From Romanomermis culicivorax (Eukaryota > Nematoda > Enoplea > Mermithida > Mermithidae), in assembly GCA_963922205.1 (NCBI GenBank), contig CAWUHX010000032.1:496001-560000 (forward strand): 64,000 bases of DNA, written 5' to 3'. Positions 1,696 to 64,000 of this stretch are shown here, one piece after another. Position 1 is the stretch's first letter. Each line of letters opens with the position of its first letter. The notes under the pieces are model-generated. The model saw only the letters and a program-made list of their open reading frames with translations. It did no database searches and was not told the DNA's origin. Made by a program: the position numbers and the translations under genes.

Positions 1696-2148
1696 TTATA
1701 ACTTTAATAATCATAATTATTCATTAAGTAGCTCAGGCGTGGCTTTTATTATGTCTACCTTCATTTATCACTTAATCTATAATAGTTTTCGTCATCTTAA
1801 ACGTAGTATCTCATGTTTTAATTGATAATCTTCAACATTTTATCATAATATTTAATGAAGATTCGCATTTTTTCCTTTTGAGAAAAATCAATATGTACGT
1901 CAAGTCTCTATGCTTTATGATGCGATTATTTCTTTGCTAACAAAAAATCAATTCAAAAGCTTCATGGAAATATCTTTCGGAAATTTATACTCTTCTTACT
2001 CATATATTTTCGACCAAGTTCATGAGAGTTTACAAATAAATTACAGATTTTAAAAATTTTCAATTAAAATTCTAGAAATTACGACTCTTGAACACAAAAT
2101 TGGAATCTAATTCTTGCTAGAAAATTTGTTCAACAATGCTTGTAGATT

Positions 2149-12300: not shown

Positions 12301-15300
12301 AACTTACTACGCTGACGTTAACTTTAGGCTCAGGGTGATATTCACACTTAGGTGCTCGTGTTCTGATTTGAGAGTAGATTTTGGCTTGAATGTACCTATG
12401 CAATTGGAGCAGATGATCCTGAGGGATAGACACCAGTACAGTAAAACCCGATATTTTTTGGTTTATCATACTGAAAATTCAACAATCAATGACAACTTCT
12501 ATACGTAAAACCTCGGATGACCAAAGAAATTTCTTGAATAATTTTTCCACTGAAACTTGAAAACACACTGAACTGCGTGTTTAAAATGAGAAAACTCCAG
12601 CTACCAGAACATCAACGTAGAAAATTTCTATTTATGTTGCCTTTTTCAAGCTGATTTGGATTGAATCCCTTGAAAACCGTTCCACATTCCACAGCCAAAT
12701 TTGGAAAATTCACCTTTCACCAGTATGCGATCTTTCGTGCATTATAAGGGACGTTTGCTGCGTGAATCTTTTATCGCAAAAGCGACACTAGAAAAAGCGA
12801 GAAAGAATAAATCAATATTTTTCATATTGAAGAAAAAAAAGGTAAAATAAGGATATAACATACGTGCTCCCATTATACACACACATATAATATGAACTAA
12901 AGAGTATAAAAAACGTATTTCCTGGATAAAAGAATAGATAATAATAGAAACTAGAGAGAAAGGGAAAACAAAAAAGAAGTCAATAGAAACGAACGACTGG
13001 GAAAGGGACAAAGACAGAGAAAAGGAACAAGAGGTGAGAAAGATAAGAGAACGAAAGATAAAACTGGATGCAAATGAAAAGGCATAAAATAAAATGATAT
13101 ATTTGGAAAAGATAGAAAAAATTAGGAAAGAGTGCAGGGTGAAAGAACAAAAAACAAATAAACAAAAAATAAAATTTGAATTTTACAAAACATACCAGGA
13201 TTTCTCAACGAAAATAGCATAAGGTAGATTATGAGGGAAGAAAAATCTATCGAAAATAAAGAAAAACTGCAATTAGTAAATTTCGTAAGATTACAGAATA
13301 AAACGTAGAAAAAAAGAGAAATAATATGACATCTATAGAAAAGCAATAACTGATAACCAAATCAATCGAACATAACCAAATTTAAATGGCCCAATTATTA
13401 AACCTTTTACAAAGTCAAATATTTGAGTTTAGTTGAAATTACGACGTTAATTTTCATAACAAGTTTGAAAATACAATGATTGAAATTTTTATGAAATAGA
13501 AAAGTAAGCAGCGTTAAAAAAATTATCCTTACGGCAAACGGTCTTTCGCCAGTATGCGTTCTTTCGTGGGCCATCAATGGATGCTTGTATAAAAATTTTT
13601 TATCGCAAAATCTGCAAATCCACTTTCGGGCGTCGACTGGAGGAGGCGGCGTGTTTTGCGGGGTGTTCGGGTCGTTCAACGATACGTCAGAGGCCGCCAC
13701 TGCCGAAGCGCGTTTAGCTTCGTGACGTTTCTTATGTGCGTAAATCGAGCTTCGGTAACTGAACGTTTTGCCGCACTCGTCGCAGGCGAACGATTCCGCC
13801 GGTTCACCTAGTTCGGCCGAATGACTGATCTCGTGCGTTCTTAGGCTGCCAATGGTAGCGAACCGTTTCGGACAAATTTTGCATTGATAAGGCCTTTCGC
13901 CGGTATGTTGCCTTTCGTGGATTTTCATATTTCCCTGAAAAACAGAATGGTTTGTACAGACCTGCGACCAAAAGAATGATTCTAATTTTCCGTAAATCTC
14001 AATTTGTGCAATTAATTCTAACATACTTGAATCTAAATTCCCAACAAGCGATTTAGCACATTATTTTTCTCAGATTGTCCTTTTTAATTAGTTGTGCGTG
14101 TGACAAAAATACTCGAAAATGTAATGTTGGTATCAATGATACAATTCTACGATCATGTTTATAAACTAATAATTTTGGGGAAGTCGTTTTAGATGTCTCA
14201 TTCAAACACTTGATCTCGCAAAAGCATATGGTATCCTGCCCGATTCAACCAATTCTCGATACTGTGAAAAAATCATAAAATGTATACTTGTGATGCGAAT
14301 CCTTTGCCACAAAACTCGCAAATGTACGGTTTTTGACCGGTATGCCGTCTTTCATGGACGATTAAGCTCGTTTTTTGGGCAAAGCCTTTTTCGCAGTGCT
14401 GACATTTGTACGGTTTATCTGCAGAAAACAAAATCAACCGAAAAAGAAAATTTTCGATTAATTAAACTTTGAGCATAACAAGGGATCCAAAACTATTCAG
14501 AATTTCCTTTTCTTCAATGTTTCACAATATTTTTGATTATATTCCTTATAATTTCATTATTTACTATTTCTTCTCGCCCAAAACTGGGCAAACAAAGAAA
14601 ATAGAAAAAATATGACAAACAATAAATCGAAATGGGCCAGTGGAAAGTAAACAAAAAACATATATTCAACGTTATTTCGACTAAACGAATTGAAAGTAGG
14701 AAAACAATAAGATATAAGAAAGGTTATAAACAGGAAATGCGCACCAATGTGAAAAAGCAAGAAAGGATTTTTAGTAAAGATGAGTATAATGAAGATCAAC
14801 CTAAAGAAGAGAAAACAGAATGTACTCGTACAAATATGTAAATGGTGAGCGAACACATATAGACAGATCTTATGGGTTCATCTGGTACCATGCAGCTCGT
14901 CTCTTTGGTTCTCATATCCGAATCCTCAACAGAAATTTTATCGTACTAGAAATAAAAATAGTTCAAAGTTGATTTTTCAACCATTGCTATTGTGGATTTA
15001 GGAGGTCTTAGAATAGATTTCGGCATAAAATTTTCAGGTTAATATCAAACGACTTTATCATACCTAAATTCACCATTGCATGAAATGTTGAAATGAATAC
15101 GGTGCTAGGAACAAGATTCACAAGGTCAGATTTTCTGGTAGGGGTAAATTTCAGTTTGTAGGGGAGGTGCACTCAAATATCCATTGAAACAGCCACTTTT
15201 CTTCAAAATTGAATACGCAGTGATCTATATTGGGGACCCTAAGTTGAGGTAATACCCGATCCATACTCCTGTGTTCAGCAGATGTGGTTTTGAGAAGTCA

Positions 15301-27929: not shown

Positions 27930-28196
27930 AAGCATTGCGCAGCAAGGTCTGTCATCAATTTGATTGGTCGAAAAAATTTATTGATTTTTTTAGTTGTTCT
28001 GGCAAATTTGCTGGTTTAGGCTTAGACTTATTCTTAGACTTACATAGGTCTACGCTTAGGCTTAGGTTTGAGTTTAGGCGTAGGCTTAGGCTTGGACTCA
28101 CGGTTAAGAAGGAGTAGACTAAAATTTTCGACCAATCAAATTGAAGGTGTAAATTTTTTCGATCCATCAAATTGATGACGGATCTTGCTCCGCAAC
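27930..28196. repeat. Foldback with degenerate CTTAGG repeats in the loop
   Basis: The left arm GCAAGGTCTGTCATCAATTT and GATTGGTCGAAAAAATTTA is mirrored on the right by TAAATTTTTTCGATCCATCA and AAATTGATGACGGATCTTGC. The loop carries degenerate CTTAGG/TTAGGC repeats (28015-28105). It directly abuts the GTGCC-word repeat starting at 28197. Confidence 0.7.
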
Positions 28197-31253: not shown

Positions 31254-31740
31254 CAAAACAGCTTAAGCTGCAGCTCAGCTGTAGCTTAACTCATACACAC
31301 AAAACATATCATCGGGAAAGTTGAGCTGCAGCTGAGCTGCATCATAACGGCACTGTTATAACATACAGAGTTAAGCTACAGCTCAGCTGTTGAGAGTGGC
31401 CAAAGCAGCAACCTCAACTACGAATTGTTGCAAAAAGAGGGAGCCTTTCCCGCTGCTCGGTTGGCTCAGCGGTTGGTTAGAGCGTGCGGACGGTAGCCGC
31501 AAGGTCCTGGGTTCAAGTCCCAGACCGAGCCTAAGTTTTACCGAAGCCCCGAGTAGCGGGAAAAGGTTGCCTCAACACAGCTGCAGCTTAACTCTCTCGA
31601 CATGTTTTGTGTGCATGAGTTAAGCTACAGCTGAGCTGCAGCTTAACGACAATGGTATAACGTATAGAGTTAAGCTACAGCTTAAGCTGCAGCTCAACTG
31701 GAGCTTAAGTCTCTTTGATGAAACCGGCCCCTGGTGTCAA
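31254..31740. repeat. CAGCTGAGCTGCAGCTTAA repeat, copy 1
   Basis: Repeated AGCTGCAGCTTAAC and GTTAAGCTACAGCTCAGCTG words in both orientations with AACATATC/ACATGTTTTGTGTGCATGAG spacers, ending GATGAAACCGGCCCC. Two other copies lie at 48903-49050 and 55515-55769. This copy surrounds the tRNA-like sequence at 31455-31531. Confidence 0.7.
31455..31531 (+). tRNA. tRNA-like sequence, anticodon GGT (Thr), possibly a pseudogene
   Basis: A full cloverleaf can be drawn. The acceptor is GCTCGGT/ACCGAGC, the D stem GCTC/GAGC, the anticodon stem TGCGG/CCGCA with loop ACGGTAG (anticodon GGT), and the T arm CTGGG-TTCAAGT-CCCAG. B-box GGTTCAAGTCC is intact and A-box-like TGGCTCAGCGG is present. Position 33 is C instead of the near-universal T, there is no encoded CCA, and it lies inside a dispersed palindromic repeat with inverted flanks (CCTTTCCCGCT and AGCGGGAAAAGG). 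A tRNA-derived SINE head or tRNA pseudogene is as likely as a working gene. Confidence 0.6.
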
Positions 31741-40200: not shown

Positions 40201-43200
40201 GGCGTTTTCGAATCGCGCTTTCAAATTTTTGGCCTCGACTTTTATACCGGCCAGTTCATCGGCCGGTACGCTGGGCACTACTTCTTTTTCCTTGAGGAGG
40301 ATTGTTCTGGCTTCGGGCCTTAAATTTTCCGATCATGAGTTGTGCCAGTTAGATTTTATGGAAATTTTGAATTTTTTTAATCTTAAAAATAAGCGGTTTT
40401 TTATTTTCACGCTAAATTTTTACTGTTCATAATGGGCAGTCTTTTACTTGATACTTACATGGAACCTTCTGGTGGCGGCGTTATCAACCTTTTAACTTTG
40501 GCAACTTTTCGCTCGTCGGCTTTTCCTTGTTCGATGTCCTTGAATTTGTTGACTAAATTTCCGACCTCGAAATCTCCGTCATCAGATTCCTCATCGTCAC
40601 TTTCGGCTTTTCGGTTCACGGGTTCTGGTCGATTCTTGTGCTATAGAAAACAATACTTTTTGTACCATATTGTATCACAGCCCGCTCATTAGTGAAGACG
40701 AGAGGGTTTATATCGTATTCTCAGCCTTCACATGCCCATAAAACCCTTGGTCAGATCAATTTTATTTCGTCACATACCTCCTTGGCCCATTTACTTTGTT
40801 CGAGCGTTTTAGTGGCCGGGGCAGCATTGGGCACAACTCCGTTTTTTACTTCGCTTTGTACTTTCGAAGTGTTGGTGTCTTCGGCAGCCGCACCTACCTG
40901 CAAACAAAGAAGCTTCAGTGCTATATCACGACCAAGTTTTTTATGAGTCTAGAGCTATAATAACCCTCACAATTTTTTTAGTAAAAACTTTTGTCATAAA
41001 AGGTTAGTGTTGACCACGCTTCTAATTTCTCTCATTTTTTCAATTCAAGCATTTTATAAAAACAGTCTAAATGAACATAAAAATGATGTTCTCATTTTCG
41101 CTGAATCCGCGTTCTCGACCAGTCTGTGAATTTCGTGCTTATCCGAGTGAAATATTGCGCTACACTTTGACATTGGTTCAAAAACTGGATGGTCTATTTA
41201 CTGTAAAATAATTCTTTCATGCGTACGATTTTTCGGAATCATGTACTGTAGCTGCCGAAGTCACGTACTGTGCTGTTCTTATATTGTAAAGCCATAAGGA
41301 TTCGATAAACATCCAATATATTTGTTGTTACTGACCGCCCTTTTTTACCGGAAAAGATCTAAAAAAACTCACCGTTCCGACTTGTTTTTTACTGCTACGC
41401 GCTTGCTTCATTTGTTTCCTGGCTTGTTTTATTTCGTCGAATTCTTTCTCGATTTGTTCTTTCTTTTTGGCCTGCTCGGCCACCTCATCAGTCGTTTGTT
41501 TGGCGCCCGCTTGTTCAAACGTGGCTTTTATTCCGCCCAGTTCGGCGCATCGGACGTCCACGACAACGGTTTTTTCGGTGGTCTTTCCATCGTCTAAAGG
41601 GCGCTTTTCGAAACGCTCTTTTACATTACCCATATCTATATAAAAGAATTTTGTACTACTGAATGGTACCGATTTTGTTGAGTCTGGAGAAAATGTTCTC
41701 GAAACAACGGTATATTTGAACTGATCATTGACAGTTTTGCAATACATCGAGACTACAAATGTGTTTTCGACAAACTAATTGAAAAATATTTTCAACGCTT
41801 ATTCTTAATGGTATTCATACTCTTGAGGATTGAGGTGGGCCATACCATGAAAATCACCATTTTAAATTCGATTCCATGTAGAATTTTAAATTTTATTTGA
41901 TGTAAAAATTCATGCAGGTCATCTCACTTGAATATTTTTTCTTACCATAACGTTATGTGAACAAGATTTGGGAAACATGCCAGTGAATAGCAGTGAGATA
42001 ATGTTAGGTGTTCGTAGATTACTTGGCACAGTAGCTTCCTCGTTGAAAGATTTGACTATCGTGGGGAAATCACCGACGGTGAACTAACAGCAGTGAATGA
42101 CAAGGTCAAATGATCGATGCATAATTTCACGGACAGCTAATAAGGATTTAAATGCACGTATTGATGAGGAGGACGAGAAAACCTACTCACAGGACAATAT
42201 TTGGAATCATCTTCAACAGGGAAGCATTATTGGTGAATAGAAGTGGGAAAGGAATATCTAAAAAATTGGACGTTACAGTTCTGCAACAGTTGATTAAAAA
42301 CATCATTCCTCTTTCGCTATCAGATCGAGCCACTCTATTAGCGAATTTTTATCAGAGTTAAAAAATGGATTCTGTATTCTAACACGATTTGTGAAAGGAA
42401 AAGTTCCGACAATATTCAGGGTGTTGCATAATGATTGGAGACACCCCTGCAGGCGTAAGGGTATAAGCTACAAATAATTATCGTATACTAGCGTGTAGAA
42501 AATTCAATTCTGCATTTCATGAACTATTTTTGAATTTGAAGTACCGAACCTGACTCAATTCATGGGTTAAAAAGAAAAGCTACCCTAAAATCAACAAAAA
42601 AACGAGAGTTTAAATAAATAATCAGTTTCACCGCCATTTGCCTCCCTAACCTATCGAAAACGTTCTGTCATATTCCAATTCGGTCAAAACGAGATGCAAA
42701 TTTTTTTGCAATGTTTCCCTCGAGTAGCGTCTTTGACCGATCTATTGCCAAGTGAGCGATTCCCAAGCGGGCGATTCCCAAGTGAGCGATTCCCAATTGA
42801 GCGATTCCCAGGTCAGCGATTCCAAAGTGAGCGAATTCGCAAGTGAGTGAATTCCCAATTGAGCGATTCCTATGTGAGCGATTCCCAAGTGAGCGAATGC
42901 CCAAGTGAACGAATTCCCAATTGAGCGATTCTCATGTGAGCGATTCCCAATTGAGCGAATTCCCAAATGAGCGTATTCTCACCTGAGCGATTCTCATGTG
43001 AGCGATTCCCAATTGAGCGAATTGCCAAGTGAGCGAATTCCCAATTAGACGATTCCAAACGAGCGACCGAGAATGTAATAACACTTTCTTCATATTTTCT
43101 TTCTTTACCTAACATTTTCCTTTGTTTGTATTTCTTTTTTCTTTCGTTTTCTGGGTGTATTGTTAATGTTTTCGTTCATGTTTGTTTTCTTTTGTCTCTG

Positions 43201-46200
43201 CTTTCTTTCCTTTTCGTTTTTCTTGTCATCTACTTTTTTCTTTTTTGCTCATGAAACAACACTCCTGTATAATTCTAGTACAGTTCGACATACTTGAGTC
43301 TTTCATCGTTGTAAGGGTGAAAATCTTCATAAAAACATAAACAAAAAAAATGTTGAAACAAACAAAACATCAAGAGAAAGGAAACGTCAACAAAAATGAA
43401 GACATTAAGAATAGGTGAAAATTGGTGGAAAGCATTAAAAAAGAAAAAAAACATGAAGACAGTGACAAGAAAGAAGAAGCAACAAAGGAAAAGCAGCTAG
43501 AAAAAAAGAAAAAAATGTGAAGAAAGGACAGAAAAGAAAAAAATCAGGAGAGATTGAAAGCAAAGAACTAAGGAGAAGAATCCCAAAGGATAAAATTATG
43601 TAAAAAATAGAGCGTGCCGAATTGTATAAGAACTATACGGGAGACTATGCTTATTAAAAATAAGAACTTGTAATTTGTTGTTTCGTGAGCAAAAAAGAAA
43701 AAATCAGATAATAAGAAAAAGAAAAATAAAAGAAAACAGAGACAAAAGATGAAAACGTAAAAATACACATAAACGAAAACATTAACAACACACACAAAAA
43801 CAAAGAAAAAATACATACATAGAAACATATAAGGTAAAGAAGGAAAATATGAGGAAAGTGTTACTACATTATCGATCGCTCATTTGGAATCGCCCAATAG
43901 GGAATCCGCTCACTAGGGAATTCGCCCACTTGGGAATTCGCTCAATTGGGAATCGCTCACATGAGAATCGCTCAATTGGGAATTCGCTCAATTGGGAATC
44001 GCTCACTTGGGAATCGCTCACATGAGAATAACCCTCCTTGACCAACCTCCAGATGCATCAAACGTTCCACTCGATTATTAACAATTTCTCCATAATTTTC
44101 AGTGGGATTCAAATCTGGACTGTTGCCCGGCCACATGTCATTTCTACAGAATTTGAGACTTCACTCTCGAAGCAGAAAATTAAAAAAATTTAAAAATTTG
44201 AAAATTAAAATACAAAACAAATTTCTGACTAGTTTTATTTTAACTTGTTTCTTTACACATAAATTTAAAATGTGAACAACGTAATTAATTTATCTGATGC
44301 AGAGTTGAATTTTCTACAAGATGGTATATTACACTTTATTCTAGCATGCACCTATTTGGCTCCAGAGTTGTCTCCAATCATTATGCAACACCCTGTAGTA
44401 AACTGTGGAGCCGTAATGAAAAGCAGAACTGCAACTATTGGGAATATTATAGTTAACTCATGGCGTCATTCACTTCGTCTCCTTGGAACTCGGATTCAGC
44501 ATCCTAAAATCATCTATGCTCGACAGCTGCAAAGGGTGCAAAAATTCGTGATACTGAAGAAGGGTGGTGGTTCGGGTAAATCAAGGATCATCTTTTGTTC
44601 ATGACAAGACAATTTTCTTGAGAAAGCGCCTTAGTTAGAAGATAGCATTAGTCATTCCCTGAGCTGACAGACTGTGAGTTGTGGCTGCGCGAAATGCTGA
44701 ATATTTCATTGATGTGACACAAATTCAAATTATAACTATCAAAATATATGGCTCGACATTACTTCTTTACAATTTTTTATTAATTACAAAGTCACAAAAT
44801 TCGGTGACTTCTCTAACCTGAAAATTTGATGTCTTCTGAGGCTACAGTACGATCCACTGGCTTTGTATCTTGAAAAGCCGTTCCTTTCAGGAACGATTCT
44901 TTAGCAGCGTGGCTAACTAAAACAAATTAACATGATCTTATCACCTTAAAGTTGATGACATAATTATACTTCTACAGAAGCAATACAAATTTTTTATGCA
45001 ATCGTCAAAATAAAAGTTACAGGATACATGAAAATGATAACTTCAAACTCGACAATTACTGCATACTCACATGACGTATCTACAGCTTCTTCGTCGTAAA
45101 CCGATTTGCGCTCTGCGTAAGCACCACTTTCTGATTCGGCTTTATCTTTGAATCTTTCTTTCACCGAAACATTCTTCTTTATTTCGTCCAATTCTTGACT
45201 CCTGTCTTCGATTTCTCCCTGCGCTCTTTCGACCGTTCCGCTTTCCCATTTTGATTTTATAGATTTGGCGCCCACTTGAATTTCGACCTGTAAAAAAATT
45301 GGGATAACGAGAGCAGAAAGTTAAAAAAAATATGGAAAAACGGTCAGCGCAGTCTGGAGGTCGATCAGTATGGCTTAATGGAAAAGCCATGCTTTTTTAT
45401 TCTAAAAAATTTTTTGACATACGTATTTCATAAAAATCCAGAAATTTGGAATCATCGCGGAGTTTAATTGTAAATTGAAATCCATAACAAAATTCACATC
45501 TATTTGAATCGGCTCAAAACATTTCCCTGATTTATCTTCTGCTCTCCGGAGGAAAAAGTATAGAAATTTTCGGGTAATTGAAAATTTTATAGAAAAAAAT
45601 ACTTTTGCTCTCAAAATCAATTGTTTTTGTTTAGTTCTTTCAATCATGGGTAGCAGATTACGTTAACGTAAAAATTTGCATAAAAACAGCAGAATCTGCA
45701 GATTAGTCACAAAGTAAAAAACTGACACGATAAAACAGTCGTTCAATTCAAGTGGGTACATCTCAAGGTTATACTGTAACTTAGTTGACTTTTGCATTAC
45801 ATAGAATAGGAACTTGGAAATACCAATTGATCACAAATTAACTGAACTGATGATTTAGTAGTGAAACTGTGCATCATGGGACATGGAAGGATCTGCTTGT
45901 AAAATTTTCATTCTAAACAGAATGAATACAAGATACTCTAGTCGTCAGCATGCAATCTGTAATTTTAAAATGCTTCAAAATTAAACTTCGTGGTAATATT
46001 CTCAATTGTTTAGTCGAGAAGTCTCGTCATGAAATGTGGTAGAGAAAGAAGAGTTAAAAGATGATAGTGTTTGTATACTTCACATCAGTTTCGTGCTAAC
46101 ATGATTTCAATTATCGGTCAGTTCTGATGAAACATAATATCTTTCAGACCACTCGAAGTTTATTGTTTTATTTTACTTTTTCCTTCTTTTTGCTAGACTT

Positions 46201-52164: not shown

Positions 52165-53569
52165 AAACGAAATTGGTAACCATGTCACGTTAAGCAGGAC
52201 TGTGGCCAACCACATTGATGGGAAAACCAATGCCATATTGGTAAAATACGGCCCTGTCACTGTAAGTGACACACTGTGACCCCGTTGGGTGGCTCCGTTT
52301 ATATTCCTTTGGGGAACCTAACCCAGCTGGTACTGGCTATAGAAGGGCCTATAGATTACCTCGGTACTATCCTTGGGTTCTGCTGTAGAGTGATGGACAA
52401 CGCCGCTGGGTCAGGGGTGGCAATTCCTAGTCCCATTCAGTGAGAATGAAGGACAAGGCCATTTGTGGAATGGCCTACTGTAGGGGACCCGATTGTCAAC
52501 CTGAATCCCCTTTTTGGCCCTAACCCAATAGGAACAAGGGCCTTTCTAACTGAGGGGATTCTCAAGGGGAAACTGACTTAGGGAAAGGGTTTCCACAATA
52601 CACCCTCAACAACAATAATCCCCTGAGAAGACTTACCTAGTCCTTTTCTCAACTAGGACTCGGTGTGGGGTGATGGGTTCACGGGTTCACCAGTCCTGGA
52701 ATGACGGGAACAGGCTGATGGCTGTCCCGTTAGGTTCATGGGGTGTGTACTGTAAACCGGTCGGCAGGCGACGCAGTTGAACCACTGGTGAACCACTGGA
52801 AAGTACTAGGCAAGAGAGGCAATGTATATACTCCTATGTAGGAATTGGGCGGTGAATGCAACAATGGACATAAAATCTACGCAAATTTATTAGCAACTGT
52901 AGGTGGCGGACTCAATGTAATATAGAATAACAATATAAAAGTCGACAGACGCAAGACACAGAGCTAAACCCAAAGAAAGCGATGTAGGCCCAAAAATGAG
53001 TACAAAACTAACAAAACAGGCCCTTTTAAAGGGCCTCGTAGACCTACAGTATGCCCTGGGTGGAGCTAACAACGCCCAAGCTAACTTCTGCAGGGGAAAT
53101 TACTGCAGAAGATGCCCATGGTCACATAGACATTTTCCAGTTCGAATACGTTATGCATTGGGATGAGTTTCGCTCTCCAAGCTAAATATATGAACGTCTT
53201 TTAGAGAGAATCTCCAAACTAGTCATTTTGCATTGCAAAACATCGCTAGTTTTTACTGATAAGAGGTGCACATAATGCTCCAATTATAGCCATGAGCTCG
53301 TAGAGCTTATTTTGGTGGAAATTCTAACTAACAGGTGTCACTTGCCGATCAATTTCGCCCAATGTCACATGATTTACATCATGTTTATACTTTATGTTTT
53401 GTGTGATTTTTGTTTAACAGTTACTTACTCTTATTTTCGCATTTTGTTCATTATGTTTTTACATGCATTCTTGTGTGCATTTTTGTGTTTCGTTTCTGTT
53501 TCATTTAGTGTTTTTCTTTGAATTGCTTTTTGTTATTTTTCCTTTGCGAATGTAGACTATGGTATGTAA
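52165..53569 (-). mobile_element. Inverted-repeat element, truncated copy (arm A plus shared end B)
   Basis: Arm A (52165-53335) is the reverse complement of 53570-54745 at high similarity over about 1.17 kb, e.g. CACTGTAAGTGACACACTGT, ACCCAGCTGGTACTGGCTAT and GGGTGTATTGTGGAAACC-type blocks. Segment B (53336-53569) follows and serves as an end repeat. The far end repeat is missing. Confidence 0.7.
52996..53166 (+). other. 56-codon Cys/His ORF in arm A
   Basis: MSTKLTKQALLKGLVDLQYA ... NFCRGNYCRRCPWSHRHFP. The inverted arm carries the same frame on the minus strand (from about 53909 to 53751) with several amino-acid changes and a slightly earlier stop. C-x4-C-x2-C-x3-H spacing could bind zinc. 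Most differences are non-synonymous, so selection is not evident. Function unknown. Confidence 0.35.
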
Positions 53570-54985
53570 CCTGTTAGTTAGAATTTCCGCCAAGATAAGC
53601 TCTACGAGCTCATGGCCATAATTGGAGCATTATCTGCACTTCTTATCAGTAAAAACTAGCAACTTTTGGCAATGAGAAACAACTAGTTTGGAGGTTCTCT
53701 CTTAAAGACATTCATATATTTGGCATGGAGAGTGAAACTTGCCCTAATGGTTAACGTATTCGAACTGGAAAATGTCTATGTGACCAAAGGCATCTTCTGC
53801 AGCAATTTCCCCTGCAGAAGTTAGCTTGGGTGTTGTTAGCTCCACCCAGAGCATACTGTAGGTCTATGAGGTCCTTTAAAAGGGCCTGTTTCATTAGTTT
53901 TGTACTCATTTTTGGGCCTGAATCATCTTCCTTGCCTTTTAGCATGCCTCTTGCATTCATCGACTTATTTTATATTAATTTACATATTCATTGCATCCCC
54001 CCTATATTTCAATAAATTTGCATACGACCTCGCGTTCACCACTGCGTTGCGTTACTATACCCCTGCATAGGAGTTACCCGTCACCCCTTTGATTAACACT
54101 TGCCCGTCATCCCTCTTTGTGGATCACTTGCATCACTCACCGACCTGTCTACAGTACACCCCATGCTGAACCCAAACTGGACCAACGTCACCCCCATTCC
54201 CATCGTCCCAGGATCCGTGAACCCTTGAACCCGTCGACCCACACTGAGTCCTAGTTGAGAAAGGACTAGATAAGTCTTCTCAGGGGATTATTGTTGTTGA
54301 GGGTGTATTGTGGAAACCCTTTCCCTAAGTCGGTTTCCCCTTGAGAATCCCCTCAGTTAGAAAGGCCCTTGTTCCCATTGGGTTAGGGCCAAAAAAGGGA
54401 TTCAGGTTGAAAATTGGGTCCCCTACAGTAGGCCATTCCACAAATGGCCTTGTCCTTCATTCTCACTGAATGGGACTAGGGATTGCCACCCCTGACCTGG
54501 CGGCTTTGTCCATCACTCTACAGCAGAACCCATGGACAGTACTGAGGTACTCTATAGGCCCTTCTATAGCCAGTACCAGCTGGGTTAGGTTCCCCAAACG
54601 AATATAAACGGAGCCACCCAATGGGGTCACAGTGTGTCACTTACAGTGACAGGGCCATATTTTACCAATATGGCATGGGTTTTCCCATCAATGTGATTGG
54701 CCCAAATTCAGTTAATGTGACACGGCTCCAATTTTGTTTAATGTGACACGGGTTACATACCCTAGTCTACGTGGGCAATGGAAAAATAACAAAATGCAAC
54801 GGAAATGAAAACACAAAATAAAACAGAAATGAAACACAAAAATGCACACAAGAATGCATGTAAAAATATAATGAATGGCACGAAAAATAAGTGTAAGTGA
54901 CTTTCAAACAAAAAGTGGCGAAAAACATAAAGTATCAGCATGATGTAAATCACGTGACATTGGGCAAAATTGACTGGCACATGAC
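53336..54985. mobile_element. Inverted-repeat element, complete copy (B - A' - B')
   Basis: The terminal inverted repeats are 53336-53569 and 54746-54985 (about 235 bases): GATCAATTTCGCCCAATGTC and TTTACATGCATTCTTGTGTG recur inverted, and the ends read TGTCACTTGCC / GGCACATGACA. The 1.17-kb interior is the inverse of 52165-53335. It shares its left end repeat with the truncated copy. No transposase. A short Cys/His-rich ORF occurs in both interiors. Confidence 0.7.
53751..53909 (-). other. Partner Cys/His ORF in arm A'
   Basis: Minus-strand counterpart of 52996-53166: MSTKLMKQALLKDLIDLQYA ... NFCRGNCCRRCLWSHRHFP, stop after VRIR. No recognised family. Confidence 0.35.
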
Positions 54986-55067
54986 AATAATTAAGCAAAA
55001 GGATTTTTTTCACAATTTGCTATATTATGTATACTTACAAAAAAAAATTGGTCCCTAGAGTTATTAA

Positions 55068-55769: not shown

Positions 55770-56663
55770 TGTAACGTACCTGCTAAAGCAGTACTGTAAA
55801 CATGTAGCATACTGTATGTAATAGACATTTATTAGATATTATTTTATTTTCACATTTTATCGTCTCAAGGATGTCTGGGATTCACACCCAAACATTCCTA
55901 CAAAATTACGTGAAGTACTTTATTTTGATCCGTTCACACCCCGGTAGCCCAATTAAGATGCCCTAATTAATTCGCACAAACGGCAGCTGTTCCCCTAGAA
56001 TCTACACTAAACTACACATTCCACAGCTACCGTAATCCCCAGTAATAATCGTAAACAACACCTGCACACAGTAAAATGCGTAGAAGCCCCGCCGTACAGT
56101 AGTCTCAAGTGTAACAGTAGCGGCGACCCCATAAAACATGTGTATACAGAGAAACCGATACAGGAAGCATGCACAGAAGCACAGAGGTGTGGCCAAGCCC
56201 ACCGTAAAAAGCAAGTAAAGCACAGAAAGCATACGGTACCAGAAAAGCGTTAGAGAGGCGTAACTAAGAAAGCATAAAAAGCGTAGCCGGAAACGACGAT
56301 TGGCGGAAGAAGATGGACAGAAGCTCGACCTCCCACAGCGTCCAGGGAGTGGCCAAAATCGCCGTATAAAAGAAGAAGCAAAGCGTGATTTTGATCATTA
56401 TATTCTGGTTCTTATTCTGGTATCGTTTTATTCTTGATCCGCGCTCGCCCCGTCTTTATACATTTGCAAGCGGCCGACTATTCGAAAGCATTTAAACCGA
56501 GGCCCCCGTCTGTATTTTAATCCGAAGCGCGTATATTTGTCGACGTTCAAGCGACCGTCGAATTAGCCGTTGTTGTTGTAACCGTTCGCCCTGCCCCGTA
56601 TTTGCCCCGCCGTATCGACCGATTGGTCCAAGTAAAGTACCTCACAGAAATCTGGTCGTTACA
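55770..56663 (+). repeat. 5' long terminal repeat of the gag-env-pol retroelement
   Basis: It begins TGTAACGTACC and ends CTGGTCGTTACA, a TG...CA pair extended to a perfect 6-base inverted repeat TGTAAC/GTTACA, length about 894. A primer-binding site follows 5 bases later. The 3' LTR is outside the window, so LTR identity and age cannot be judged. Confidence 0.75.
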
Positions 56664-56668
56664 TATTT

Positions 56669-56686
56669 TGGTGACCGTACCATTAC
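56669..56686 (+). promoter_or_regulatory. Primer-binding site for minus-strand DNA synthesis
   Basis: TGGTGACCGTACCATTAC starts 5 bases after the LTR. The leading TGG complements the CCA end of a tRNA, as in other LTR elements. I have not identified which tRNA. Confidence 0.65.
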
Positions 56687-56906
56687 GTTAACCAGTGGAA
56701 CTCCCTGCCCCCAATTAGGTGTACTCTTATCCGGGCATTTAGAAGCATTAGATAATACAGTAGTAATCATTTCCTACAGTAAGACAGTATTCGTATTAAG
56801 CAAACTGGAAATCCCCTCCAACGAGACATTAAGCGATACATTTAAACGAATACAGCGTGAAGCAAAAATTGAAGCATTCAAGCAGAAATCCCATCGTAAA
56901 CCAAGA

Positions 56907-58655
56907 ATGACCCACCAAACGCAAGATCATTTAGGAGAAATCGTTAGAGAACAGATAAACGATTTATTTTCAGAACATTTTCGTACCCTACGCACACAAT
57001 TGAATCAGAATACAGTAAACCCCACCCTAATAGACGATTTAAGAACAGCAAACATTCGTAATAACATGGCAAACAATTTCTACGCGAAACCTACAGTATT
57101 CACGGGCGGCGTGACCCAACATTTTGGTGAATGGAACAAAAGATTAGAACAATTCATGGCACTCCAAGGCATGAAGGATACAGACGTACAGTTAAAGTTG
57201 GCATGTTTAGAGATTCATTTAGGAGGAGCCGCGTTAGCAAAATTCAAAAGTTTAGCAAATTCCGAAAACCCTCCCCACACATACGAGCAGTATAAAGTCG
57301 CATTACAGACATTTTTCCCAAACAATAGAGATAATGAGCTACATCAACAATTCTTACGCGAAAGAAAACAAAAGCGATCAGAAACAGTAACGGAATTCTT
57401 ATTTGATCTAGAACATCTCGCAACCCTCGCCTACCCTAACTTTAACACAGATGCACGAGAAATGATCATAAAACCCCTCTTTGTAGAAGGCATGCAAAAC
57501 GAAATCAGGGAAGCAATTAAGTATAGAAGGTTCGCAACTCTAAAAGAAATGTCAGACGAAGCAGCTTACATTGAACAACAAATCCTTAGAAATGAGCTGA
57601 AATCTAACGTCCTTCCCTTCATACCCCCAAAACCCGAACCCATCTTTTCCCTAACCAAAAATACAGACCAACAGGATCTTTTGCATCAGCTAGAACAACA
57701 AGTAAAAGATTTACAGTTGCAGATCAAACAAAAAACTCAACCCCCACAACAGAGTAGCTACAACAATTTCAGCAACAATACTTTCAGCAGGAATAATGCT
57801 TACAGGAACAATACCACCCCCAGGCAACCCACATGCTTCCAGTGTGGACAAATCGGACACGTAGCTCGTAATTGTAAATCAGTAGGCACCCGAAAATCAT
57901 GTGAAATCTGTTTCCGTAATAATCACAGTACACGTGATTGTAAAAGCCCATGCATCCACTGCTCCCAAACAGGACATAGATCAGATAACTGCCTTTCAAA
58001 ACCCTACTCCAATTTTCAATGTTTTCTATGCAAGCAGAGAGGTCATACAAGCAGGTATTGTCCAAATCAGCAAAGTCGTAATATTCAAAATTGCATTGAG
58101 TATAGGCAACCCCAACCCCTCATGGACATTGACGACCCCGCATTTTACTCAAAATTACCCGCCATAACTAACGGCCCTCAGACTACTTTAGGAACTATCA
58201 TGCCCAACACCCACCGCCGCAGTGACGAATACGTCCTTGATCTGGACGTACCCGATTGGTGCGCCATGTCACCACCCCCCACGCCTGAAGCCGCAAAGAT
58301 CGAAAAATCGCCGCCCACCATCCCCGTAGGCTACAAGATCCCCCGAAAACAAGACACTACGCCGCCCACCGCCCCCGAAACCCCGTCGAAAACAGGCCGC
58401 AACTTGTTATCCCTTCTCCATGGCCTGACCCCCGAACCCTACCAATTCCGCCCCCGCCAAACATTGCTACCGACCCCCGCAAGTAAGCAAGTCCAAACCC
58501 CATCCCATAACTCAAATTCCAAACTTTTACGGACCGTTCAGATTTCAAACCGGCCACCCCCCCAGCCCAAAATCGCAAAACGACAACACCAAAAGCCCCA
58601 ACGCCAAATCGAGCACAACGAAAATATACAGTACCCCGCCGCCTCCACTAAAACG
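56907..58655 (+). CDS. Gag region with four CCHC zinc knuckles
   Basis: Structural polyprotein. A capsid-like helical segment contains FGEWNKRLEQFMALQGM and TVTEFLFDLEHLATLAYPNF, typical of retrotransposon Gag. Four C-x2-C-x4-H-x4-C knuckles follow between 57834 and 58075: CFQCGQIGHVARNC, CEICFRNNHSTRDC, CIHCSQTGHRSDNC and CFLCKQRGHTSRYC. About 190 further residues are Pro-, Lys- and Gln-rich. One or two knuckles are the norm in Ty3/gypsy Gag, so four is unusual. Confidence 0.82.
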
Positions 58656-61600
58656 CTACATTGGCCATTGTATTGTATATTTTTATGTATAATAATCCCC
58701 ACATCGTGTAGTGCCCAATTTCAGATGTGTGGAACTTCATTGAGCGGTCACTCAGTCAGCATACCAAAACTTGTATCATGCATGCCCCCTTCCACAGTAG
58801 ACAAACCCGTACAAACATTTGGAAAAATCTATATCCCCTCCACTAAGCCCCACATTACAGACGCATACAAATGCAGTGTTCGCAAACGCAAAATTTGTAC
58901 TAATACAGGATTTTTTGGATCAAAAGGTATTGTCTTCGACCAAACCGAAATGCAAAATCTAACCCCACATGTTTGTAAGGCAATCGTTATAGACAAAGAA
59001 CACAATGGTCAAAAATTATACGAAACCCAACCAGGATTTTGGTCAACAAACAACTCCCTAAGCATAGAATACACATGGTGTTGTACAGACCATTGTACCT
59101 CAGTCACTAACGTCATCATAGAAATAGGACAAATAGCATCTTGGAATGGAAAATCTATGACAGGTACATTAGGCGACCTAGGGTCATGCAAACCGACATC
59201 AGGTCATTGTGTCACAGCCGACGGATCTATTATCTGGAATGAAACAGCATTTGAAAACTTATGCCCTTTCGAATACAAAAATACACATCCCATCAAACTC
59301 ACGCAAACACACATGATAATAGAAGAACTACAAGGTGCATTCTCGGTCAAAAATACAGTTTTTTCGAACCCCAATTGCCCAGAAATCCAAGATAGCATTC
59401 TAACCGAACAAGGCATTATCGTACAATTAGACAAAAGCACCCCACATCGTAATGCATTTTTAACCCCAAAAACCAACGAAACTCATACTACATTATACGA
59501 TTTTGATGATTTTGAACCCATTAATGCAAAACTAAACTATCTAGCAGACAAAATACAGGAATTCGAAATTCAAAATTTCAAAAATGTATGGAATGAATTA
59601 TGCAGACAGGCACAGCGTCACCTTGATCTCGTATGGCAAATCTTGCGTCTTGATGCAACCCTTGGAGCGCGTGCATTCCTACAGCGAACCGACATCATAG
59701 CAGAATTCACAGGAGAAGCCCTCACAGTCTGGCCCTGTAAACAAGTAAATGCATCTAAAATCTTTTACAACCATAAAATCAACCAAACATGCTACAAACT
59801 TTTGCCCATTCTCGTAGGAACTGAACTCATGTTTTCAAATCCAGGAGGCAACGATTTGACCCCTTTTTCGCAAACCGTTGACTGCCATCACATGCATGTA
59901 GCCCTTTACAAACAGAATAATACATGGGTCAGTGAAACAGGATTCCCGCATGTCACAAATTTACCCCTAGAAATCGTCTGGAACCAAAATTTCTCCCTTT
60001 TCCATTTTAATACACCCGCCATTTTTCATGATCAACTTGCAACTATTTCAACCAACTTACTCTTTTTGAAACAATACATTTACAAAACTCACACACTCGA
60101 AAACATTGTCAAAAAACTCGTCAATTACACCGCCCAAATGTCTCTCAATTCCGATACAGTTTACAACATAATCTCAGGCACTGGTCAAGCACTCGGAAAT
60201 ACACTCTCTGGCGCCGGTCAAGGCATAGAACATGTAATAACCGGTACCACCCAAAGTCTCACGGACGGATTAAACAATTTACTCAAAGGACCCCTGCAAA
60301 TTATTATAAATCTAGCCGTTATTACTGTAGTTATTGCAGGCGTCTTTTATTCGTTTCTCGTTCTTCGAAAATATTTCCCCTCTTCAAAGCATCATGCCAC
60401 AAACGAACATGCATACGAAATACCATCAAACAACAGACATTTACATGAGACCATTCCCCCATCATTCGGCCATGCTCTCTTAGAATTAGCTAATCGTCGT
60501 GGGGCACAAACGCAGCAGAAATACGTCCTTGTCGATATTGATACCCCCCGAACTCCTGCAATCGAACTCATTAATCAAATTCAGCAATCTGCATCAAATA
60601 AACCACCCCAAAACGTACCTGAGAAACATACCCCTCATATTCCAATCACACTTAACGGCAAATTAATGACAAAAGGCATGATTGACACTGGTGCAGTTTA
60701 CTCACTCATTGATTCCCGAGTCGCGCAACTTTTACAGTTAGACATGAAACCCCCGCTAGTCCAAGCAAAAGCAGCAAATAATCTTCCGATTCACTTTGTA
60801 GGAACCACTTTTGTCACAGTAACAGCCCAAACAATCCAGGAAACAATCATGGTCCATGTCCAAAAAGATTGCACAGCAGACATCCTTCTAGGCAAAAACT
60901 TTCTCAGTCGATTTTCGGAATACACTATCAACAATCAAAAATCACAGGTCAAATTTGGCAATGTTATACTACCTTGTGATGGCCTAGAATATAGCCCTCT
61001 TTCAACTCGTGGTGGAACTTATTTGGATGAAAAATTAGAATTACCACCCCGTACAGTAACCGAATTTACTGTCCCCTTGCCCAAATCCTACTTACAGGTC
61101 AAACAGCTTGAATTCACCCCAAAACCCAAACAGAATCCCAAAGTCCATTTCGCAGCTTGCATCTCTGAAAATCAAAACAGTCGCATACGCATATCCGTCT
61201 TAAACACACAAGAAACAGCCCAAATTCTTTATCCTGGAACATGCATTGGTACAGTCTCATGTTACATCCCAAAACAAAATGCTCCCGCTAATCTAACCCC
61301 TTCAATGCAAAACCAGCCCAACCGTTTTGATACATTCACATGGTTAAAAGAAAACGTCAATTTGACCTCCAGTGACCTCACAGAAACCGAGAAAATGCAA
61401 CTCCTACGCGCCCTATCGAAGTACCCTACATTATATGCTAAATCCAAAATGGATGTAGGTAGAACCACCCTCGTTTCACATACAATTGACACCAATGGCT
61501 CCCAACCAGTACGTAGACAACTTTATCGGACTTCCCCAAAAGAAAAGCAAATCATACAAGCAGAAGTTGAGCAACTCGCAGCAGCAGGTGTCATAAGCCA

Positions 61601-64000
61601 AAGCAATTCCCCATGGTGTACCAACACAGTTTTAGTTCCCAAAAAAGACGGAGGCCATCGTTTATGCATTGATTTTAGAGGCCTCAACAAAGTCACCAAA
61701 AAAGATACCTACCCCTTGCCCCGGATAGACGAAATTCTAGACACCCTCCGTGGAATGAAATATTTCACCTCCCTTGACCAATCCAATGCATACTATTCCA
61801 TTCCCATAGCACAAACAGACAGAGAAAAAACAGCCTTTAATTGCTCAGCCGGCCAGTATCAATTCAATTACCTCCCCTTTGGACTCACCAATGCCCCAGC
61901 CACATTCCAAAGGTTAATGGATGTTATTCTTTCGGGTCTGCAATGGAACACATGCCTTGTATATCTCGACGATGTCTTGGTATTCGCAGATTCCCATGCC
62001 CAAATGCTGGAACGTTTAGACACTATTCTTGCCCGATTCTCACAAGCAGGCCTTAAGCTAAACATCCAAAAATGCAAATTCTGCCAGCCCCAAGTCCAAT
62101 ACTTAGGCCACGTCATTTCCCAGCAAGGCATTTCACCAGACCCCCATAAGGTACAGGCAATCTATGACATACCCACGCCCAAAAGCTCAAAAGAAGTTAA
62201 ATCATTCCTTGGCCTACCCTCATATTATCGTAGATTCATCCCAAATTGCTCTCAAGTTTCTAGCCCACTCACATCGCTACTCAAAAAGAACTCAGAATTT
62301 TCCTGGGGCCCTGAACAGCAAAATGCATTCACTAAGCTTAAAGAATTACTCATTCATGCCCCAATACTGCAGCACCCCGATTTCACAAAACCGTTTATTC
62401 TGCAAACTGACGCCTCAAAACTCGGCATCGGCGCCATTCTCAGTCAGCTAGATAGTAAAGGTCAGGATCGCCCCATTGCTTTTGGGAGCCGCACATTGAA
62501 ACCCGCAGAACGCAACTATCCGATCACTGAGTTAGAAACCCTTGCAGTAGTCGAATTTGTCAAGTATTTCCGCCCCTATCTTTTCCAGCAACATGTTATT
62601 GTACACACTGACCACACAGCAGTTCAGGCAGTCTTACAAAAGGAAAACCCGTCCCCTCGCATTGCCCGTTGGGGATTAGCTCTCTCTGGCATTCAGCTAG
62701 ACATTCGACCCAAGAAAGGCACTGCTAACCGCAACGCAGATGCAGTTTCTCGATTCCCCTCACAGACAGCAAAGCAATCCTTTGATATTGAGCAATTAGA
62801 AACCCGCCCCGAAATATCAACCATCAATTCAGTTTTGGAAGCCGAAGCAACTGAACAAGAAGAGCAACAGAAAAACTTTGCCGAACTCCAACGCACTGAT
62901 CCAACTGTCAAAAGTATTTTAGCAAAAATTGCCCAAAAACACCCCCTTACTCTGATCAAATTCGCCGTGCATCAAAACATTCTCTTCCGTATAGTCGACA
63001 AACAGGCAAAACTATACATTCCCAAGTCCCAAGTCCAGCATCTCATCGCCTCACATCATGACAGCAAGTTCACAGGTCATTTTGCGGCCCGGAAAACCCT
63101 ACACTTGCTCAGACAGAAATATTTTTGGCCCCAAATGAGCCGTGATATCAAACGTTACTGCAAAACTTGTCACCCATGCCAGACACAGAAAGCCCTCCGA
63201 CACAAAGTGCATGCAAACTTGGTACCAATTCAGCCGACTGGCCCCTTTGATAGAGTCGGTGTTGATTGCATGGGACTGTTACCCCTCACTGAAGACGGCA
63301 ACCGATTCATTGTCGTTTTCATCGATTATTTCACAAAGTATGTAGAGGCATTCCCGACCCCTGACATCACTGCGGCCACTATTGCCAAGCTATTCGTAAC
63401 CAAAATTGTTTGTCGTCATGGGTCCCCAAAAATCATCCATTGTGATCGTGGCACCGATTTTGTATCCGATCTCTTCTCACGGATCACCAGTTTATGCAAC
63501 ACTCAGAAAATTCACACTACCCCATATCATCCCATTGCCAATGGAGAAGTTGAGCGTTGCAACCAAACCCTAGCCACCCGTATCCGCATGTACATCAATT
63601 CAAATCACACTGATTGGGATACTTATCTGCCCTATGCCGTTTTTTCGATCAACATCCATAAAAATGATAGCACATCCTATCCCCCATTTGAATTACTCCA
63701 CGGTAGGCAAGCTAATCTGCCGTCAGATGCAGCTCTAAATTTTTTCCCCACGTCCTACATGGTTGACTTAGACGATTACGCCCTTCGTGTAAAATCGCAT
63801 TTTACGGAAGCACTCTCAACCGTGCAGAAAAGTTTGCAAAAAGCCCAAGCCCACTATACCCGTCAGTATAACAAGCATGCTCAGAACATACATTACAAGG
63901 CAGGTGATCTTATTCTCTACAAAAATCATTCGTGTAAACAAGGGCTGACTCCCAAATTCCTCCCTCGCCAGAACGGGCCCTATACAGTTACAAACTTCAT
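56907..64000 (+). CDS. Single Gag-Env-Pol polyprotein ORF (3' end outside window)
   Basis: The first in-frame ATG is at 56907 (MTHQTQDHLGE). The frame is open upstream too, back past the PBS, but without an ATG. Landmarks all fall in the same frame: zinc knuckle Cys at 57834, signal-peptide Cys at 58686, protease motif at 60678 and RT catalytic Asp at 61968. No in-frame stop appears up to 64000. The protease would process the precursor and signal peptidase probably also cuts at the Env start. No frameshift, readthrough or internal stop separates gag from pol, so stoichiometry must be set in another way. Confidence 0.85.
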   Translation, partial: MTHQTQDHLGEIVREQINDLFSEHFRTLRTQLNQNTVNPTLIDDLRTANIRNNMANNFYAKPTVFTGGVTQHFGEWNKRLEQFMALQGMKDTDVQLKLACLEIHLGGAALAKFKSLANSENPPHTYEQYKVALQTFFPNNRDNELHQQFLRERKQKRSETVTEFLFDLEHLATLAYPNFNTDAREMIIKPLFVEGMQNEIREAIKYRRFATLKEMSDEAAYIEQQILRNELKSNVLPFIPPKPEPIFSLTKNTDQQDLLHQLEQQVKDLQLQIKQKTQPPQQSSYNNFSNNTFSRNNAYRNNTTPRQPTCFQCGQIGHVARNCKSVGTRKSCEICFRNNHSTRDCKSPCIHCSQTGHRSDNCLSKPYSNFQCFLCKQRGHTSRYCPNQQSRNIQNCIEYRQPQPLMDIDDPAFYSKLPAITNGPQTTLGTIMPNTHRRSDEYVLDLDVPDWCAMSPPPTPEAAKIEKSPPTIPVGYKIPRKQDTTPPTAPETPSKTGRNLLSLLHGLTPEPYQFRPRQTLLPTPASKQVQTPSHNSNSKLLRTVQISNRPPPQPKIAKRQHQKPQRQIEHNENIQYPAASTKTLHWPLYCIFLCIIIPTSCSAQFQMCGTSLSGHSVSIPKLVSCMPPSTVDKPVQTFGKIYIPSTKPHITDAYKCSVRKRKICTNTGFFGSKGIVFDQTEMQNLTPHVCKAIVIDKEHNGQKLYETQPGFWSTNNSLSIEYTWCCTDHCTSVTNVIIEIGQIASWNGKSMTGTLGDLGSCKPTSGHCVTADGSIIWNETAFENLCPFEYKNTHPIKLTQTHMIIEELQGAFSVKNTVFSNPNCPEIQDSILTEQGIIVQLDKSTPHRNAFLTPKTNETHTTLYDFDDFEPINAKLNYLADKIQEFEIQNFKNVWNELCRQAQRHLDLVWQILRLDATLGARAFLQRTDIIAEFTGEALTVWPCKQVNASKIFYNHKINQTCYKLLPILVGTELMFSNPGGNDLTPFSQTVDCHHMHVALYKQNNTWVSETGFPHVTNLPLEIVWNQNFSLFHFNTPAIFHDQLATISTNLLFLKQYIYKTHTLENIVKKLVNYTAQMSLNSDTVYNIISGTGQALGNTLSGAGQGIEHVITGTTQSLTDGLNNLLKGPLQIIINLAVITVVIAGVFYSFLVLRKYFPSSKHHATNEHAYEIPSNNRHLHETIPPSFGHALLELANRRGAQTQQKYVLVDIDTPRTPAIELINQIQQSASNKPPQNVPEKHTPHIPITLNGKLMTKGMIDTGAVYSLIDSRVAQLLQLDMKPPLVQAKAANNLPIHFVGTTFVTVTAQTIQETIMVHVQKDCTADILLGKNFLSRFSEYTINNQKSQVKFGNVILPCDGLEYSPLSTRGGTYLDEKLELPPRTVTEFTVPLPKSYLQVKQLEFTPKPKQNPKVHFAACISENQNSRIRISVLNTQETAQILYPGTCIGTVSCYIPKQNAPANLTPSMQNQPNRFDTFTWLKENVNLTSSDLTETEKMQLLRALSKYPTLYAKSKMDVGRTTLVSHTIDTNGSQPVRRQLYRTSPKEKQIIQAEVEQLAAAGVISQSNSPWCTNTVLVPKKDGGHRLCIDFRGLNKVTKKDTYPLPRIDEILDTLRGMKYFTSLDQSNAYYSIPIAQTDREKTAFNCSAGQYQFNYLPFGLTNAPATFQRLMDVILSGLQWNTCLVYLDDVLVFADSHAQMLERLDTILARFSQAGLKLNIQKCKFCQPQVQYLGHVISQQGISPDPHKVQAIYDIPTPKSSKEVKSFLGLPSYYRRFIPNCSQVSSPLTSLLKKNSEFSWGPEQQNAFTKLKELLIHAPILQHPDFTKPFILQTDASKLGIGAILSQLDSKGQDRPIAFGSRTLKPAERNYPITELETLAVVEFVKYFRPYLFQQHVIVHTDHTAVQAVLQKENPSPRIARWGLALSGIQLDIRPKKGTANRNADAVSRFPSQTAKQSFDIEQLETRPEISTINSVLEAEATEQEEQQKNFAELQRTDPTVKSILAKIAQKHPLTLIKFAVHQNILFRIVDKQAKLYIPKSQVQHLIASHHDSKFTGHFAARKTLHLLRQKYFWPQMSRDIKRYCKTCHPCQTQKALRHKVHANLVPIQPTGPFDRVGVDCMGLLPLTEDGNRFIVVFIDYFTKYVEAFPTPDITAATIAKLFVTKIVCRHGSPKIIHCDRGTDFVSDLFSRITSLCNTQKIHTTPYHPIANGEVERCNQTLATRIRMYINSNHTDWDTYLPYAVFSINIHKNDSTSYPPFELLHGRQANLPSDAALNFFPTSYMVDLDDYALRVKSHFTEALSTVQKSLQKAQAHYTRQYNKHAQNIHYKAGDLILYKNHSCKQGLTPKFLPRQNGPYTVTNF
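58656..60620 (+). CDS. Envelope-like membrane glycoprotein region, internal to the polyprotein
   Basis: An internal signal peptide (58656-58715, hydrophobic core ending SCSA) is followed by a cysteine-rich N-terminal half (about 58716-59270), about nine N-x-S/T sequons, a basic RKRK stretch near 58880, a Gly-rich helical segment (60150-60280) and one transmembrane helix (about 60290-60366: INLAVITVVIAGVFYSFLVL) with a basic cytoplasmic start (RKYF). This layout is that of a class of viral entry glycoprotein. The segment LGARAF...GEALTVWPC is faintly reminiscent of glycoproteins of chuvirus-like negative-strand viruses, but I cannot confirm the family. No in-frame ATG lies just before it. Confidence 0.72.
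60620..60960 (+). CDS. Aspartic protease region
   Basis: Pepsin-like retroviral protease. HIPITLNGKLMTKGMIDTGA gives the catalytic D-T-G (Asp codon at 60684), and ILLGKNFL is the C-terminal I/L-L-G motif. It lies directly after the Env cytoplasmic tail rather than after Gag. Confidence 0.85.
61400..62340 (+). CDS. Reverse transcriptase region
   Basis: Motifs in order: SPWCTNTVLVPKKDGGHRLC, IDFRGLNKVTKKDTYPLPRI, FTSLDQSNAYYSIPI, LPFGLTNAPATFQRLM, the catalytic YLDDVLVF (61962-61985), then CQPQVQYLGHVIS. All match Ty3/gypsy RT. The catalytic aspartates are intact. Confidence 0.92.
62380..62760 (+). CDS. RNase H region
   Basis: FILQTDASKLGIGAIL gives the first acidic residue, NYPITELETLAVV the Glu, and VHTDHTAV and NRNADAVSRF the remaining Asp residues. 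Intact. Confidence 0.88.
62880..64000 (+). CDS. Integrase region, truncated by the window
   Basis: Zinc-binding HHCC (HH near 63054-63059, Cys pair in KRYCKTCHPCQ). Core D,D,E: DRVGVDCMG, HCDRGTDFVSDLF and PYHPIANGEVERCNQT. It reaches a GPY-type motif (PRQNGPYTV) at the last bases. Whether a chromodomain or a further domain follows is not visible. Confidence 0.88.

Follow-up and report, generated by a model that had tools for sequence, protein, structure and literature searches.

A Ty3/gypsy-type element of Romanomermis culicivorax with a class III fusion glycoprotein predicted inside a single Gag-Env-Pol polyprotein

We analysed a stretch of 64,000 nucleotides from the mermithid nematode Romanomermis culicivorax (contig CAWUHX010000032.1, positions 496,001 to 560,000 of the forward strand; the whole stretch is called the window below), which ends within a retroelement of the Ty3/gypsy type. 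The reading that we favour, with a probability of roughly 0.58, is that this element, seemingly intact up to the window end, encodes a class III fusion glycoprotein (Env) inside one Gag-Env-Pol polyprotein made on the endoplasmic reticulum (ER). The forward strand contains 2501 codons without a stop at positions 56496-63998. From the first ATG, at 56907, the frame comprises 2364 codons (56907-63998), and no stop has been reached where the window ends, within the C-terminal part of the integrase. The longest open frame in 300 control sequences, generated with a first-order Markov model of window positions 56000-64000, had 274 codons. The single frame holds, in this order, Gag with four CCHC knuckles, a proline-rich linker, a signal peptide, an ectodomain, a transmembrane (TM) helix, a protease, a Ty3-type reverse transcriptase (RT), an RNase H and an integrase. 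Pfam placed in the same frame zf-CCHC (two stretches, the best at residues 309-325), Monjiviricetes_fusion (857-1035), gag-asp_proteas (1246-1335), RVT_1 (1577-1737), RT_RNaseH_2 together with RT_RNaseH (1800-1927), Integrase_H2C2 (2038-2096) and rve (2119-2209). The original prediction, made from the letters of the DNA, had claimed that Gag, an Env-like glycoprotein and Pol lie in one stop-free frame in that order; the scan of open reading frames (ORFs) and the order of the Pfam domains bore this out, and the likeness of the middle segment to class III fusogens, described next, supports its reading as an Env-like glycoprotein.

The Env segment is bounded by the only two stretches of the frame in which mean hydropathy exceeded 1.5 over 19 residues. 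The first is an internal signal peptide-like stretch (58653-58715, approximately residues 583-603) and the second a TM helix with the character of a stop-transfer sequence (60294-60365, approximately residues 1130-1153). Between them lies the ectodomain (58716-60293), whose central part (59475-60011) matched PF24664, the viral fusion glycoprotein family of Monjiviricetes, with an E-value of 6e-18, above the Pfam cut-off; NCBIfam gave no match for the Env segment. A profile built from the five Env relatives described below (A1) matched herpesvirus glycoprotein B (gB) entries in the PDB with a best E-value of 1.7e-9, and the match spanned profile positions 279-582, as far as the TM helix. When a low-confidence AlphaFold model of Env was used as the query, Foldseek returned 565 matches at E-values up to 10 (best 6.9e-10); the best 50 of these 565 were all herpesvirus glycoproteins (gB by name in 48 cases), aligned over 422-733 columns. 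Nine N-glycosylation sequons fall at approximately residues 601-1150 and 14 in the remainder of the frame. As judged from the sequence profiles and the low-confidence model, the segment is most likely a class III fusogen of the gB/chuvirus type.

The strand composition of Env resembles that of its neighbours in the frame. Env, gag and pol are alike A/C-rich, with GC skews of -0.23, -0.18 and -0.27 against 0.01 in the flank, and AT skews of 0.15, 0.26 and 0.13 against a value near zero in the flank. This shared bias suggests that Env has resided in the element for a long time.

Upstream of Env, the Gag part (56907-58106) comprises a Ty3/PNMA capsid-like region, weakly matched by Pfam, and four CCHC boxes found by motif scan, which start at residues 310, 332, 349 and 372 (knuckles at 57834-58061). 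Searched against the PDB, the Gag part hit zinc-knuckle entries and no capsid domain. The proline-rich linker between Gag and Env (58107-58652) is unlike the rest of the frame in composition, with 40% C, C-rich third positions and a third-position GC content of 0.60. Downstream of the TM helix, a predicted cytosolic tail or linker (60366-60641) leads into Pol, which consists of an aspartic protease with a DTG motif (60642-60911), an RT (61635-62117, YLDD at 61962), an RNase H (62304-62687) and an integrase (63018-63998, truncated at the window edge) with H2C2, rve core and a C-terminal part that by eye carries a GPY-like motif. This order, together with a Ty3-like RT, is that by which Metaviridae (Ty3/gypsy) are recognised, and among solved structures Ty3 Gag-Pol came closest to the Pol part (E-value 2e-124). 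The window RT was at most 45% identical to each of the 59 comparison RTs aligned. In a tree of 60 sequences including the window, restricted to those with at least 300 RT positions, it had no supported close neighbour; the smallest clade containing it had a support of 0.23.

Two protein searches yielded five relatives of the Env, P0001 to P0005; one of the two also returned P0006 to P0009, which matched through the Pol part of the query. A third search, of long proteins by words from the Env region, found none among 7566 candidates. The most informative relative is P0001 (1079 aa, from a contig of 6995 bases), in which a signal peptide, Env, a TM helix, a DSG-protease-like stretch and the start of a gypsy-type RT follow one another in one frame (assigned partly by eye). 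Its part after Env was colinear with the protease and RT start of the window over 375 aa at 20% identity, with an E-value of 6e-17 from a comparison against a single-sequence database, without composition correction or low-complexity filtering. Env thus stands directly before Pol in two proteins, the window and P0001, whose Env parts are 36-38% identical. In P0002 (739 aa), a member of the same Env family directly follows a weak DUF5641 match (E-value 0.015, below the cut-off) that we take to mark where a BEL/Pao Pol ends. This may indicate that Env has been exchanged between superfamilies of long terminal repeat (LTR) elements. P0001, P0002 and P0003 also have a hydrophobic stretch just ahead of the conserved Env start (by eye). 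P0003 to P0005 are incomplete, and P0005 is annotated as coming from R. culicivorax itself. Among 16 cysteine columns, picked for having Cys in at least four of the six Envs, 12 have Cys in every covering sequence and four differ in one sequence.

We also compared the window with 73 other gypsy-type loci collected through a Pol alignment, 72 from genome_contigs and one from IMG/VR; most of the former sit in bins labelled as prokaryotes, which we infer to be eukaryotic contamination. An RT start was found in 71 of the 74 sources (70 loci and the window), and CCHC boxes were sought in three forward frames up to 4500 bases upstream. They were detected in 38 loci and in the window, and in 32 loci none was found. 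The distance from the last CCHC box to the RT was 1157 aa in the window versus 231-874 aa (median 310) in those 38 loci, a range in which long distances are under-counted because many contigs are shorter than the span searched. The window Pol had no match in viral_contigs, and neither viral_contigs nor genome_contigs contained the same Env in scans that reach relatives matching a few short peptide patterns. None of the 73 loci matched the Env profile at E-values up to 1; the Env-Pol join of P0001 came to light in the Env searches.

Because Env has a signal-like segment on one side and a TM segment on the other, the membrane topology of the polyprotein is self-consistent. In the mechanism that we propose, the Gag-Env-Pol chain would be made on the ER in a flavivirus-like manner. 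Gag would be synthesised in the cytosol, and the internal signal peptide would then open translocation, with signal peptidase releasing Gag and the linker from Env. The ectodomain would fold and be glycosylated in the lumen, and the single TM helix would stop translocation and leave Pol in the cytosol, where the element's own protease could trim the cytosolic parts. The outcome would be an enveloped, potentially infectious particle made without a separate spliced env mRNA. We infer the cleavage steps, the stoichiometry and the formation of particles. A flavivirus polyprotein likewise strings together capsid, internal signal, envelope, TM segments and cytosolic enzymes, but these viruses are unrelated and the resemblance is an analogy only; to our knowledge, such an ER-threaded strategy is known from no reverse-transcribing element. 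The frame has no in-frame Met between residues 454 and 607, so a start codon just before the signal peptide is lacking for a separately initiated Env, although splicing from an upstream exon could still supply one.

Several observations weigh against this reading. The in-frame join of Gag and Env has one example, the window; the ORF of P0001 begins with a Met of its own, upstream of the signal peptide, Gag was not seen there, and Pfam found no protease or RT domain in P0001 at an E-value of 0.1 or better. In the Env tree, which comprises six sequences on long branches, P0001 joined P0002 and not the window (ultrafast bootstrap 84; FastTree 0.976), so that Env and Pol may have been joined separately in the two. 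To these are added the absence of the Env from all 73 comparison loci, the weakness of the capsid match (Ty3_capsid E-value 0.0015 and PNMA 0.007, both below the curated cut-offs), the poor quality of the AlphaFold model of Env (mean pLDDT 43, pTM 0.27, built from five sequences) and the low TM-scores, 0.12-0.27, of the best 50 of the 565 Foldseek matches. Furthermore, a single polyprotein would deliver equal amounts of Gag, Env and Pol, which would be unusual, and GTAAG donor-like sites occur at 56779 in the leader, 58483 in the linker and 58975 in Env.

These last sites bear on the most serious alternative, namely that the frame is continuous but its expression is spliced, yielding a Gag-Pol mRNA from which Env has been removed and/or an Env mRNA that draws on an upstream exon, as in Cer1, whose polyprotein of 2272 aa is accompanied by a spliced cerv mRNA (PMC10309623). 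The acceptor-like motif TTTCAG also occurs four times in 9 kb versus 1.85 expected from base composition. However, skipping Env while retaining an active protease would require an acceptor downstream of Env and ahead of the DTG codon (60684). A scan for two motifs, TTTCAG and YYYYNCAG, found neither there; the nearest, at 60737, lies past that codon. This argues against a simple intron that removes Env but spares the protease. The TTTCAG at 58724, for its part, would cut off the signal peptide. We consider spliced expression rather unlikely. A second alternative is that the segment is no longer an envelope and serves to anchor Gag-Pol at membranes or to target it, without particle entry. Its place in the polyprotein would indeed tether Gag and Pol to membranes, but the conserved cysteines, the nine sequons and the gB-like similarity up to the TM helix suggest that a fusogen fold has been kept, and we hold this alternative to be improbable. 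Least probable of all is a one-off insertion or an assembly chimera that set an unrelated Env into a Gag-Pol element: the lack of the Env in the comparison loci would fit it, but the frame is kept over both joins, the strand bias of Env matches that of gag and pol, and in P0001, too, Env and Pol are joined in one frame. The placement of Env beside Pol is thus probably not a one-off.

Upstream of the polyprotein frame we located a putative 5' LTR (55770-56663, forward strand) with the ends TGTAAC and GTTACA and the motif TATAAAAG at 56365. It is followed by a putative primer binding site, TGGTGACC (56669-56676, forward strand, position from a motif scan), which we presume to be of the tRNA-Trp type. 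Both assignments stay putative because the partner 3' LTR would fall outside the window. Of the hallmarks expected of Metaviridae, namely two LTRs, a primer binding site and a polypurine tract, the window offers these two putative ones. Further upstream, positions 52204-54986 contain nested inverted repeats, with arms of 443 nt (96%), 417 nt (85%), 128 nt (88%) and others, a palindrome-like structure that is perhaps a foldback transposon. Elsewhere in the window, open stretches on the reverse strand at 7739-14060 encode C2H2 zinc fingers (all three stretches tested matched) and probably belong, as exons, to at least one zinc-finger gene of the host. Open frames at 2121-3026 resemble by eye the end of a non-LTR retrotransposon RT, and Pfam gave no match for 2448-3026. 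A degenerate array of TTAGGC, the nematode telomere unit, occupies 28016-28093 (13 copies, 67% match), and two tandem arrays at 42744-44029 are built of ATTCCCAAGTGAGCG-type and ATCGCTCACTTGGGA-type units that are apparently reverse complements of each other. ARAGORN, run with bacterial settings, called a tRNA-Thr (ggt) at 31455-31531; since Rfam at its gathering score found nothing in the window, this call may be due to chance.

In the retroviruses and env-bearing LTR elements described in the parts of the literature covered here, env is the final gene. The window element looks intact and has its fusogen placed between capsid and enzymes, which suggests that a different arrangement can work; its membrane topology, with a signal peptide leading in and a TM helix leading out, may be what makes a Gag-Env-Pol plan viable. 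The element would offer a test case for a polyprotein that places one segment in the ER lumen and yet assembles a retrovirus-like core, and it may be a further instance of a class III Env that moved from one LTR superfamily to another. A broader interpretation, to which we give somewhat less than even odds, is that it represents a separate, old lineage of animal retroelements that abandoned the spliced, env-last plan, makes enveloped particles from an ER-threaded Gag-Env-Pol polyprotein and has exchanged its class III Env between gypsy and BEL/Pao elements.

How far the organisation is new can be judged against known systems. The statement of the original prediction that env normally lies 3' of pol agrees with the profile of the International Committee on Taxonomy of Viruses (ICTV), in which Metaviridae Envs are encoded downstream of the integrase (PMC7879559); the window Env lies before the protease and so departs from this placement, in a window that ends inside the integrase and would not show a second env farther downstream. 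The stronger claim, that the organisation was previously undescribed, held in part. No Gag-Env-Pol element was found in a literature search that covered titles, the beginnings of abstracts and selected passages, outside which lies the gypsy-env survey of Chary and Hayashi 2025, and the order is therefore probably new, short of proof; an Env within a single polyprotein, on the other hand, is already known from Atlas virus. Nor is the capture of such an Env novel in itself, since type III fusion glycoproteins are mentioned in gypsy elements in a 2026 paper (PMC13172572) and a class III Env is known from a BEL element (PMC7642597). Errantivirus and other env-bearing Metaviridae likewise have a Ty3/gypsy Pol and a fusion glycoprotein captured from a virus, but their Env follows the integrase (PMC7879559), whereas in the window it precedes the protease in frame with Gag and Pol. 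Cer1, the Ty3/gypsy element of C. elegans, shares with the window element a single long frame and the Ty3/gypsy order of Pol (PMC10309623). Troyka was rejected as a counterpart because it encodes no envelope, according to the part of its description covered (PMC12440569). Chuvirus-type glycoproteins also occur in animal genomes as Jingchuvirales endogenous viral elements, including two in Nematoda, and many lie near gypsy fragments; unlike the window element, they are reported to show no clear gypsy capture, and the nematode ones are described as having simple repeats on their flanks (PMC10084718). The mosquito element Anakin has likewise captured a chuvirus-type glycoprotein but belongs to BEL/Pao, and in Roo, Tas and Cer-7 an Env-like protein lies downstream of the polyprotein (PMC7642597). 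The nematode precedent for an Env within a single polyprotein frame is Atlas virus, a hookworm belpaovirus whose frame runs without stops or introns and whose GC is reported to be active in cell-cell fusion; it differs from the window element in its Gag-Pol-Env order, its BEL/Pao RT and its class II, phlebovirus-like Env (PMC9094657).
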